From the NCBI GenBank assembly GCA_963921795.1, contig OY997649.1:28309362-28373361 (forward strand): a stretch of 64,000 nt of DNA, in the 5' to 3' direction. This DNA is from Nannobrachium achirus (Eukaryota; Chordata; Actinopteri; Myctophiformes; Myctophidae). A program made the position numbers and the translations under genes. The notes under the pieces are model-generated. The model did no database searches, was not told where the DNA came from, and saw only the letters and a list, made by a program, of their open reading frames with translations. Shown here one piece after another: positions 5,801-62,862 of the stretch. Every line of letters begins with the position of its first letter. The first letter of the stretch is position 1.

Positions 5801-8800
5801 ACAATTAATCGTCATGTGAAAATGTCATAATCGTTGACAGCCCTACCTGTTGGGAGGGACTTGGCTTGGGAGGGGTGACCATGACTGGCAGAGGAAGAGG
5901 ACTCTGTTCAGTGGTGGTCTTGGGGGCTGCCGTTTCAACCAGAGGTGCCGACACGGCTACTGCATCTTGGGTAGCTTTATCCTCCACCTGGGCAACAGAA
6001 GGTCCGCTTCCCTCGTTGCTTTTCTCTCCAAGAGCAGCTAATGCAAGATTCAAATACAAATTATACACTGTATATATCAGGGATCTTCAACAGGGGGTCC
6101 GGGACCCCTAGGGGGTCCTCAGAGTTACTACAGGGGGTCCTTCAAATCTTTGTGTGATAGAAACCCTTTTTTTCCTCCTTTTTTATATTAACCACTTGAA
6201 CCCTAACGTCCATATTCTGAGAACTTTAGCCCAAAATAGCAGATCTACAAGCTTGAGGCGTTGTGAGCTTGTAGATCGGCTATATTCGGCAAAGAGGTTT
6301 GGTGTAGAGGGGAAAAAGGAGCACACTAAGTACAGAGTGAAAGGTCAAGTGTATTAAGTATTGACGGTTCAAGTGGTATCTGATAACACAAATCGACATG
6401 AATCCAAAATACACTGACGATTGTGCTGTCAAACGATCATGAAACTATATGGAATCTGGAGGTTCCTGCTTCATCTCTCTCTCAGCTAAGGGGTCCTTAG
6501 CCTGAAAACGTTCAAGACCCCTGCCGTATATAGTTCCACTATTATCTCATTACGAACACACATCCGGAATCTATACGGGAATGCCTACTGAGTGGCAAAA
6601 AAAGACTTTCTGCCTACTGAGTAGCAAAAAACTACTTTCTGGCCTACAAAAATGTCCTGTCCGATTGCATTAAACAACGTTAAACAACATTAAACTTTGC
6701 CACTCAATTTACCATTCACTTTATGAATGCGCATACCCTCTATTCCCACACTTTTCCGCACCTGTGTCATCGGCTGCAGGCTGTCCTTCCTTCACAGGCG
6801 TGGTGTTTTCTGATGATGAGGAGGAGCTGGCCTTCACACAGGCTGGTTTGTGGCCGCTGTCCTGGGAGCTAGCGGGGTCCGTGAAGGCATCCTGTGTGGA
6901 GTTGGAGTCAGAGAGCATCACCACCTCACTGTCCTGGCTGCGCTCTGTCAGAGGGGGGGGGGGGAGGGAGGGGGGGCACAAAACAACATAGATCATGTGG
7001 CAAGCTGCCTGGCCATGTGGCCAGACCCACATCTTTCTTTATCCCCTGGAATATCAATTTCAATTCAAAGGAGCTTTATTGGTGTTTACTTTGCCAAAGC
7101 AATATCAAGGAGACCCTGGAGGTCAAGATGGGCAAAGTCTTTTCAAATACAACAAGTACGCACATCCTCGGTCTTTGGTGCCGAGCCAAAATGCAAAACA
7201 GCAGAGTCATGAAAAACAAGAAGGGGGCTCGCAACTAACTTTAAAATGCTCCAGTCTTTCGCTGCTGTGAATAAATATTCGAGCCCGCTTCTTGTTTTTC
7301 AAGTGTGACAACAGTGGTATCAGTCAATAAAGTTGAGGTTTTGAAATGAATAAGGAAAAAAGGGTGTTTATTTATTCGGCTCCAATAGCTGTTTTTGGTT
7401 CCCCAGCAGCATGCTGTTGTGCCAACTAGGAATTAAGTATACCACATTTCTTGAGAGAAACCGTTCAGCTTCTCTCAATGCTAGCTAGCGAGCCTATTGA
7501 AAACTGCGTATTGATCAAATATAGTATATAATACCAGTAAGACTCCCTAATCGGGAGATAAGCGACCGTCAGGTCGCAGCGTGATTTTAGGGCAAAATGT
7601 GTAGGGGCAGTGTCCAAAAATGTGGTTGAAAAAAATCGGCCTGATGGTGGCGCTGAGTGTAGACATAGTGTGTACCGATTTGTGTGATTTTAGGGCAAAA
7701 ATCGGCCTGAAGGTGGCGCTATATGGGACAGATCCATGTTGATGAGATTAGTGTAGACATACTGTGTAGCGATTTGCGTGATTTTAGGGCAAAAATTGTA
7801 GGAGCAGTGTCCAAAAATGTGTTTTAAAAAATCGGCCTGAAGGTGGCGCTATATGGGCCAGATCCATGTTGAGGACATGAGTGTAGACATACTGTGTACC
7901 GATTTGAGTGATTTTAGGGCAAAAATTGTAGGAGCAGTGTCCAAAAATGTGTTTTGCAAGAATCCGCCACATGGTGGCGCTAGAAGAGGGCCATGTGAGA
8001 AATGAGGGGTGGGGTCTCCGCGCCACCGAGGCGGACGAATAGGTACCGGCCCCGGCTCTCAAAGGAGTGTGTGTGCAAAATCTGGCATGGATCGGGGCAA
8101 CGGTTGCAGAGATATGAGCAGGGCAAAAGTGTGACATGTGACGTGTGACAGACAGACTGACTTACGGAACGGACTGACGGACGGACTGACGGACTGACTG
8201 ACGGACTCACAGTTTGTGGAGGTTTTGATAAATATTCAAATATTCTTTTGACACAGAATAAAATGTTTTATGGTCATGATTCATCAGGAGCCTGGGAGAA
8301 AACATTGAAACTTATACAATTGACTGATGTCAAATGTTTAATATTGCTGTGCTCTGGCATCTACGTAGATGAATGCTGTATCTTGAAACTGTGCCCAGGA
8401 TAATTATAACCAGTAAGACTCCCTAATCGGGAGATAAGCGACCGTCAGGTGACATGTATACACAAAGAGGGCTGTAAGTGGCATTGGTTCCTGAGTGTAG
8501 GGGGACGTGTAGACATAGTGTGTACCGATTTGTGTGATTTTAGGGCAAAATCTGTAGGAGCAGTGTCCAAAAATGTGTTTTGCAAGAATCGGCCTCATGG
8601 TGGCGCTAGAAGAGGGCCATGTGAGAAATGAGGGGTGGGGTCTCCGCGTTGCCTTGGCGGACGAATAGGTACCGGCCCCGGCTCTCCCGGACGCTCCTGA
8701 GTTACGGCATTTTATGTGAGCTGCAGTGGAGGGGGTCCTCCACTGGGGGCGCCACCACTTTTGCATCCGTTGTGGAGCAGCAGGAGTCGGTGGTCCCCGG

Positions 8801-62527: not shown

Positions 62528-62862
62528 TGTCGCTTTTGGGCAGAAACCTTGTATCTCCATGGTTCTTGTTTTTTTTAATAAATTAATGTCCTAGAAAAAT
62601 CATGAATTAATTTCTTACTTTGGTTACCACACAGCCAATCTATAAGCGCATAAGGCGTCATGATTTGACTCGTTGTGAGCTTGTAGATCTACTATTTTCA
62701 CTGTGTATATATACTTTTCTTTTTAAGTACTGTGGAAGTTGTGCATGTCTGTGGGTTTTATAAATATTGAACCAATGAAAAGTATTAACAAGAGCTTGAG
62801 ACTAACTGGATCCTTTACTGAAAAGTAACAGTTTTGGACATACAAGGTTTCCACCCGACAGC
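62528..62862. mobile_element. Second copy of the GGGCAGAAACCTTGTAT MITE
   Basis: GGGCAGAAACCTTGTATCTC at the left and ACATACAAGGTTTCCACCCG at the right, with degenerate palindrome copy P inside. Confidence 0.6.
62632..62702. repeat. Palindrome copy P (degenerate left arm)
   Basis: AGCCAATCTATAAGCGCATA on the left and GTTGTGAGCTTGTAGATCTA on the right, inside the second GGGCAGAAACC MITE. Confidence 0.65.

Follow-up and report, generated by a model that had tools for sequence, protein, structure and literature searches.

Across the window, i.e., the whole 64,000-nucleotide stretch of Nannobrachium achirus DNA analysed here, and across the genome, we find one 83-bp hairpin (41-base arms, loop of 1-3 bases) in many copies. 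Our preferred reading, which we put forward tentatively and with close to even confidence, is that this hairpin forms a module inside several MITE families, mostly of hAT type, and that its arms are matched to each other by hairpin-templated copying. Based on their 8-bp duplications and matching TIRs, the surrounding outer elements are mostly hAT-type MITEs, and they belong to several families.

The initial annotation had described a dispersed, near-perfect palindrome, which is borne out by a search with the 20-base arm. Allowing for up to 3 mismatches, the arm is found at 24 places in the window, while 0.00 are expected (100 shuffles). An inverted-repeat search of window positions 5000-36000 recovered 8 copies with arms of 28-49 bases that are 84-97% complementary. 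Half of them (4/8) have 3-base centres, namely the copies at 19148 (97%), 26731 and 11319 (both 92%) and 20721 (88%). The segment 52506-52594 aligns with its own reverse complement at 92%. When folded as single-stranded DNA, 4 copies reach energies of -38.9 to -45.5 kcal/mol (z between -12 and -14). With regard to the 16 copies listed initially, 14/16 are supported by the arm profile (E of at most 0.001, window plus sample), including the site 62632, which is recovered via its right arm only, and the half copies 21509 and 25752. The two others did not hold up equally well, i.e., 32545 is a diverged and weak palindrome (32541-32598, plus strand, profile E 0.0082), and 40669 is a very weak candidate (40669-40720, plus strand) to which the profile lends no support (E 1.3). 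An Rfam scan of the window at gathering thresholds matched no RNA family, and a comparison of window positions 20529-20824 with phage sequences gave no match. A 21-base pattern matched once in viral contigs and once in genome contigs, neither time inside a palindrome, and we take both matches as chance.

Genome-wide counts were obtained for the assembly of 1,658,514,493 bp in 564 contigs (1.66 Gb). Here, the exact 20-base arm is present 134,293 times (67,315 forward, 66,978 reverse), which far exceeds the hundreds of copies that had been predicted, while the reversed arm 20-mer used as control has 0 matches. Variant arms yield 13,744 + 13,360 (AAGCAC type) and 7,687 + 7,546 (CATGCTC type) exact matches. 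With both 16-base arms required to be exact, the D-type 35-place core, a search pattern that equals its own reverse complement, is found at 15,413 places. As a random sample, we used 20 stretches of 10 kb (200 kb) from 20 contigs of 60-90 Mb each. These contain 76 palindrome clusters, 41 of them two-armed (an earlier search, covering less sequence, gave 78 clusters), and no stretch is without a whole or half cluster (20/20, 20 contigs). Judged by these 10-kb stretches, the palindrome density of the window is ordinary for the rest of the genome. Extrapolation from the sample gives about 0.6 million copies genome-wide, about 0.34 million of which are two-armed. The arm profile undercounts, i.e., a diverged palindrome near 7686 of the sampled locus L020 was spotted by eye and had not been called. 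An assembly artefact or a local amplification as the source of the copies, for which nothing more than general caution speaks, is effectively excluded because of the copy counts: next to the 134,293 exact arms, there are clusters in all random stretches on 20 contigs, and the copies are divergent.

For the comparison of copies, 111 two-armed ones were assembled from the window, from the random stretches and from 68 loci that had been selected by an exact arm match. A length sufficient for comparison was available for 221 of the flanks, which fall into 25 clusters and 45 singletons. Most copies (98/111) are part of nine flank families with at least 3 members each (B 47, A 17, D 7, X 7, C 5, G 5, X11 4, H 3, I 3); the minor groups J and E hold 2 copies each, and 9/111 copies are outside any family. 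The sorting was partly manual, with B being a merger of seven flank clusters. The nine families correspond to about seven independent ones, since the 3 copies of I are clustered locally, no more than 8 kb apart, and X11, of whose members 2/4 are near-identical neighbours, is related to A. A common 67-base span is found in 53/111 copies.

We searched for the ends of the outer elements within 450 bases, allowing for at most one mismatch each in TIRs and target duplications. That way, 14/111 copies lie between matching 11-bp TIRs plus 8-bp target duplications, compared to a mean of 2.3 and a maximum of 5 for shuffled partners. These 14 copies represent 11 elements, three of which hold two palindromes. 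For the remaining 97/111 copies, the 450-base search at one mismatch gave no ends of this kind; when two mismatches are allowed, 21 copies have them vs. 6.0 for the null. Other duplication lengths are about at null level (7 bp: 3 vs. 3.2; 9 bp: 2 vs. 1.0; 5 bp: 1 vs. 0.7; 4 bp: 7 vs. 5.6). Exact 6-bp duplications are in excess (9 vs. 1.8 for the null), but this is mostly not a new signal since 8/9 are the same ends one base off register; the single new case is around window 31667-32165. The TIR motif of hAT transposons is of CAGNG/TAGNG type, which fits the TIRs of the outer elements (CAGGGGTCTTC, CAGGGGCGTCA, CAGGGACGTGC, TAGGGCTGTCA) and does not fit the inner TIR of family D. Elements of family B with CAGGGGCGTCA ends are 485-504 bp long and hold two palindromes each (L078, L028, L053), and in family D, a smaller element with TIRs is nested in a hAT-type element of 542-558 bp (L015, L021). 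For family H, 8-bp duplications were seen by eye and are weak, with 6/8 bases matching (L071, L087). As in known hAT-type MITEs, the outer elements thus combine CAGGGG/TAGGGC-type TIRs with 8-bp duplications; the difference is that, here, one hairpin core is common to families that are unlike in TIRs and flanks.

Within the window (plus strand unless stated otherwise), an intact hAT-type MITE of family A spans 26524-26957, with TIR CAGGGGTCTTC and the 8-bp duplication TTGTATAT on both sides, and includes the core 26729-26811, which is found by inverted-repeat search, profile and folding. An intact family C MITE (34631-35022; TIR TAGGGCTGTCA, 8-bp duplication GCAGAGAG on both sides) includes the core 34843-34916 (inverted-repeat search, profile). 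Another family A MITE is located on the minus strand (6071-6523), where a TIR like CAGGGGTCTTCAACGTTTTC with one mismatch is found at 6504-6523 (minus strand) and the core is shortened (6227-6292, minus strand; arm match, inverted-repeat search, profile). Family X11 is represented by the core 11316-11396 (arm match, inverted-repeat search, flanks), and a left flank of family A type adjoins the core 61927-62009 (arm profile, flanks). Cores of family B are found at 17589-17658 (arm profile, flanks), 19143-19225 (arms 97% matched over 35 bases) and 25337-25409 (minus strand; inverted-repeat search, profile, flanks). Family B flanks also adjoin two half palindromes, one consisting of the right arm only (18815-18843, minus strand; profile E 0.00059) and absent from the 16 initial copies, the other lacking its right arm (25745-25784, arm profile). 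A further half palindrome at 21505-21545 has lost the outer right arm (arm match, profile). The second core of family C (20721-20803) has the TIR TAGGGCTGTCACGATTATGA at 20531. The family X core 31897-31969 shows CATGCTC in both arms and has the hAT-like end CAGTGGTTCTCAACC nearby at 31812, for which no partner end was found. Concerning family D, the core 52509-52591 (minus strand) has AAGCAC in both arms and lies in the inner element 52408-52639, which has a 27-base TIR (TGTCGGG..GAAACCTTGTAT..TCCAA); a D flank also adjoins the core 62622-62704 with decayed left arm (arm profile, flanks). Another hAT-like end at 54126-54146 is near two self-complementary stretches, 53869-53933 (78%) and 54018-54081 (86%), that are without a match to the arm profile.

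Beside the palindromes, the window holds several other features. The segments 28703-29510 and 30409-31215 form an inverted repeat (822 aligned columns, 92.6% identity) around the open frame 29556-30518, whose 320 aa have no Pfam match at E 0.001; repeat and frame may represent a DNA transposon of fold-back or unclassified type. Pieces of an intermediate filament gene (Filament E 3e-68) are found at 41648-43659, and the encoded protein, with its acidic, Glu-rich tail, is neurofilament-like by appearance, which makes a vertebrate source likely. A stop-to-stop frame of 644 codons at 55063-56997 includes a reverse transcriptase domain (E 1.4e-36) and appears to be a non-LTR element. A 95-base unit at 28226-28412 is present in two tandem copies that match at 100%, i.e., a recent duplication. 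Another repeat relates 8408-9021 to 38495-39144 (86%), within the regions 7533-9092 and 38495-39385, the former of which also contains a 94% match between 7881-8060 and 8507-8686.

With regard to the pairing of the arms, 12 window copies have 36 derived bases common to their own arms vs. 15.5 when shuffled. For seven window copies, one per family, it is 24 vs. 10.6 (p 0.00035). Among the nine family consensi, the identity of own arms is 0.886 compared to 0.760 across families, and 0/20,000 permutations reached the own-arm value. The outer nine bases show values of 0.815 vs. 0.414 and the inner twelve 0.870 vs. 0.747, while the difference is not significant for the middle 20 bases alone (0.961 vs. 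0.939, p 0.083) because these columns are almost invariant. We also compared 11 full-length copies, i.e., one from each of the nine families plus a second copy of A and of X. Here, both partners are altered in 19/41 stem pairs (9.6 on average when shuffled), 10 pairs never vary, and the covariation score is 0.267, compared to 0.129 for shuffled and at most 0.087 for slid arms.

The differences between family consensi, 442 in total, divide into 185 matched two-arm, 160 one-arm and 97 unmatched two-arm changes; they are counted pairwise and are thus not independent, and the choice of the first arm is arbitrary between families. Within families, we find 408 differences, of which 22 are matched, 343 are one-armed and 43 are two-armed but unmatched. 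The 22 matched changes still exceed the shuffled mean of 9.2 (0/2,000). That is, changes are often matched between families and mostly one-armed within them, so pairing seems to be renewed at the origin or amplification of a family and not in dead copies. Individual stem positions of the 111 copies read T/T 97, A/A 6 and no A/T (+18), A/A 102, T/T 5 and A/T 2 (+15), and T/T 96, C/C 6 and C/T 5 (+2). An A/C mismatch is present at +6 in 39/111 copies (A 10, D 7, C 4, G 3, X11 3, I 3, others), mostly but not always in constant orientation relative to the flanks (D 5 to 2). At +10, an A/C mismatch is found in 35/111 copies, 34 of which are from family B (34/47). Among single-arm changes, G-U is not in excess over A-C mispairs (56 vs. 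65).

The extent of the unit was assessed by the own-arm agreement per position in the nine families. It is 9/9 at -1 to -3 and 8/9 at -4, -5, -6 and -8, with 4/9 at -7, 3/9 at -9 and 4/9 at -10; the drop past -8 leads to a unit of about 83 bp. At the palindrome edges, no target duplication was detected in the 110 copies with enough flank, and the consensi of the nine families likewise show none (p 0.47). Matches slightly outnumber the null at offsets 0-3, but these positions are within the arms. A TA duplication would be difficult to recognise in C and D, where TA is close to the arm ends. These edges lend no support to an independent MITE that makes target duplications of its own.

At 5 sites, both flanks of a family are present and the full palindrome is not. 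Arm remnants are kept in 4/5, namely at L030 near 7890 and 9051 (near-identical), L021 near 9870 and L012 near 905, while L030 near 6666 has both flanks matching and no clear arm remnant. Because of the remnants, the four former sites look like deletions rather than ancestral empty sites. The two L030 sites are near-identical family X copies with the palindrome deleted (L030:7795-8060 and L030:8956-9221, 1,161 bases apart), which suggests a duplication after the deletion. Sites with one flank and no called palindrome exist as well; a crude check of 18 found an arm-like 11-mer near 3. By eye, one of the 18, at L020:7686, holds the diverged palindrome mentioned above, and the one-flank sites at window 4482 and 4892 are single arms of one element, a B-type outer element at 4387-4962 whose two decayed arms, one towards each end, are separated by about 300 bp of other sequence. 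Its two parts (about 4387-4506 and about 4807-4962, both plus strand), the first with a TIR like CAGGGGCGTCA near 4398, are absent from the initial copy list. The split arms may reflect either an insertion into the palindrome or an older, far-apart state from which the palindrome then formed by deletion.

These observations bear on whether the palindrome moves alone. It could be an independent MITE of Made1 type that entered many older transposons and is still spreading by itself, which we consider unlikely. It has the size and architecture reported for Made1 (PMC1784062), it is found in many sequence settings, the nine families lose symmetry at about one common point, and some flanks are found without a called palindrome. 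However, edge duplications are absent from copies and family consensi alike, arm variants travel with the flank families, 4/5 both-flank sites are deletion-like, and the outer bases are, unlike TIRs, the least conserved ones (0.414 across families). The initial suggestion of a palindromic MITE therefore holds insofar as the palindrome is tied to MITEs; the palindrome itself is apparently not the recently dispersing unit, since its arm variants are flank-bound and, wherever ends were located, TIRs and 8-bp duplications are those of larger elements. Under hairpin-templated copying within MITEs, the outer element would carry the hairpin along, as suggested by TIRs and 8-bp duplications at the outer ends of A, B and C copies, of the element around D and, more weakly, of H, and the palindrome would not be self-mobile, to which the missing edge duplications and flank-bound arm variants point. 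During amplification, fold-back or template-switch synthesis at a stalled hairpin may use one arm as the template for renewing the other. Such recopying would spread a one-arm change to both arms, and new families would begin with matched arms. Inactive copies would then lose the match arm by arm or lose the palindrome by deletion, as is seen for several copies. What counts against templating is the +6 mismatch that persists across families, since efficient arm-to-arm copying should erase it; it argues for selection or else for short copying tracts. The +10 mismatch of family B and the flanks found without a called palindrome at one-flank sites also weigh against templating within MITEs.

The main rival to templated copying is thus selection on the hairpin itself, i.e., the paired stem and its fixed mismatch would benefit the element, for instance as a site for transposase or host proteins, as an aid to replication or excision, or as an RNA hairpin, and the compensatory changes would result from ordinary selection for pairing. 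This is possible but, in our assessment, rather less probable. Families whose flanks fall into separate clusters have the middle 20 bases conserved among them (cross-family arm identity 0.939), the +6 mismatch is retained in several families, and the same 67-base span is found in nearly half of the copies (53/111), all in line with selection, while the lack of a G-U excess among single-arm changes speaks against it, though the copies are dead. The same count gives no sign of RNA-level selection in the form of a wobble excess. We also considered a hairpin module that is transferable, i.e., acquired by numerous DNA-transposon families that are unrelated, and passed on by template switching rather than transposition, renewing its arm symmetry each time and promoting the amplification of its carriers; we regard this as improbable. 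Less probable still is that the palindrome is the already described Angel family of fish, a high-copy element with long inverted repeats. The hAT element Tol2 is reported to contain an Angel (PMC8151067), and compensatory arm changes reported for two Angel copies in lncRNAs were interpreted as RNA selection (PMC3636048). A review describes a model of Angel by fold-back synthesis and re-insertion via local homology (PMC12628747), which would also explain the missing target duplications here. The likeness (fish, high copy number, fold-back inverted repeats, location inside hAT, compensatory arm changes) is one of published descriptions, and the difference is that one core is found here in several MITE families with arms co-varying by family.

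Conserved SINE domains, e.g., the V domain, are likewise internal domains common to families with different ends, but the domain reported here is a hairpin within DNA transposons. The human MITE Made1, source of miR-548, is itself mobile, whereas the palindrome here is internal with no edge duplication detected. Both are near-perfect palindromes of about 80 bp with arms of 37-41 bases and a centre of few bases, given that 80 bp, two 37-bp TIRs and a 6-bp centre are reported for Made1 (PMC1784062). Palindromic fish MITEs are already known, as is the occurrence of such an element within a hAT transposon, and individual flank families may already be named in Repbase or Dfam. Within titles and abstract openings, mostly from outside the subscription journals, we found no shared covarying hairpin core across MITE families.

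It is an open question how non-coding MITEs become so numerous. Hairpins in the hundreds of thousands, spread across families with different ends, would provide a natural record of arm matching. Such a record would allow for separating templated copying from selection by counting. It also calls for caution with compensatory changes in transposon-derived hairpins, such as those interpreted as RNA selection in two lncRNAs (PMC3636048), since such changes can be frequent among ordinary transposon copies.
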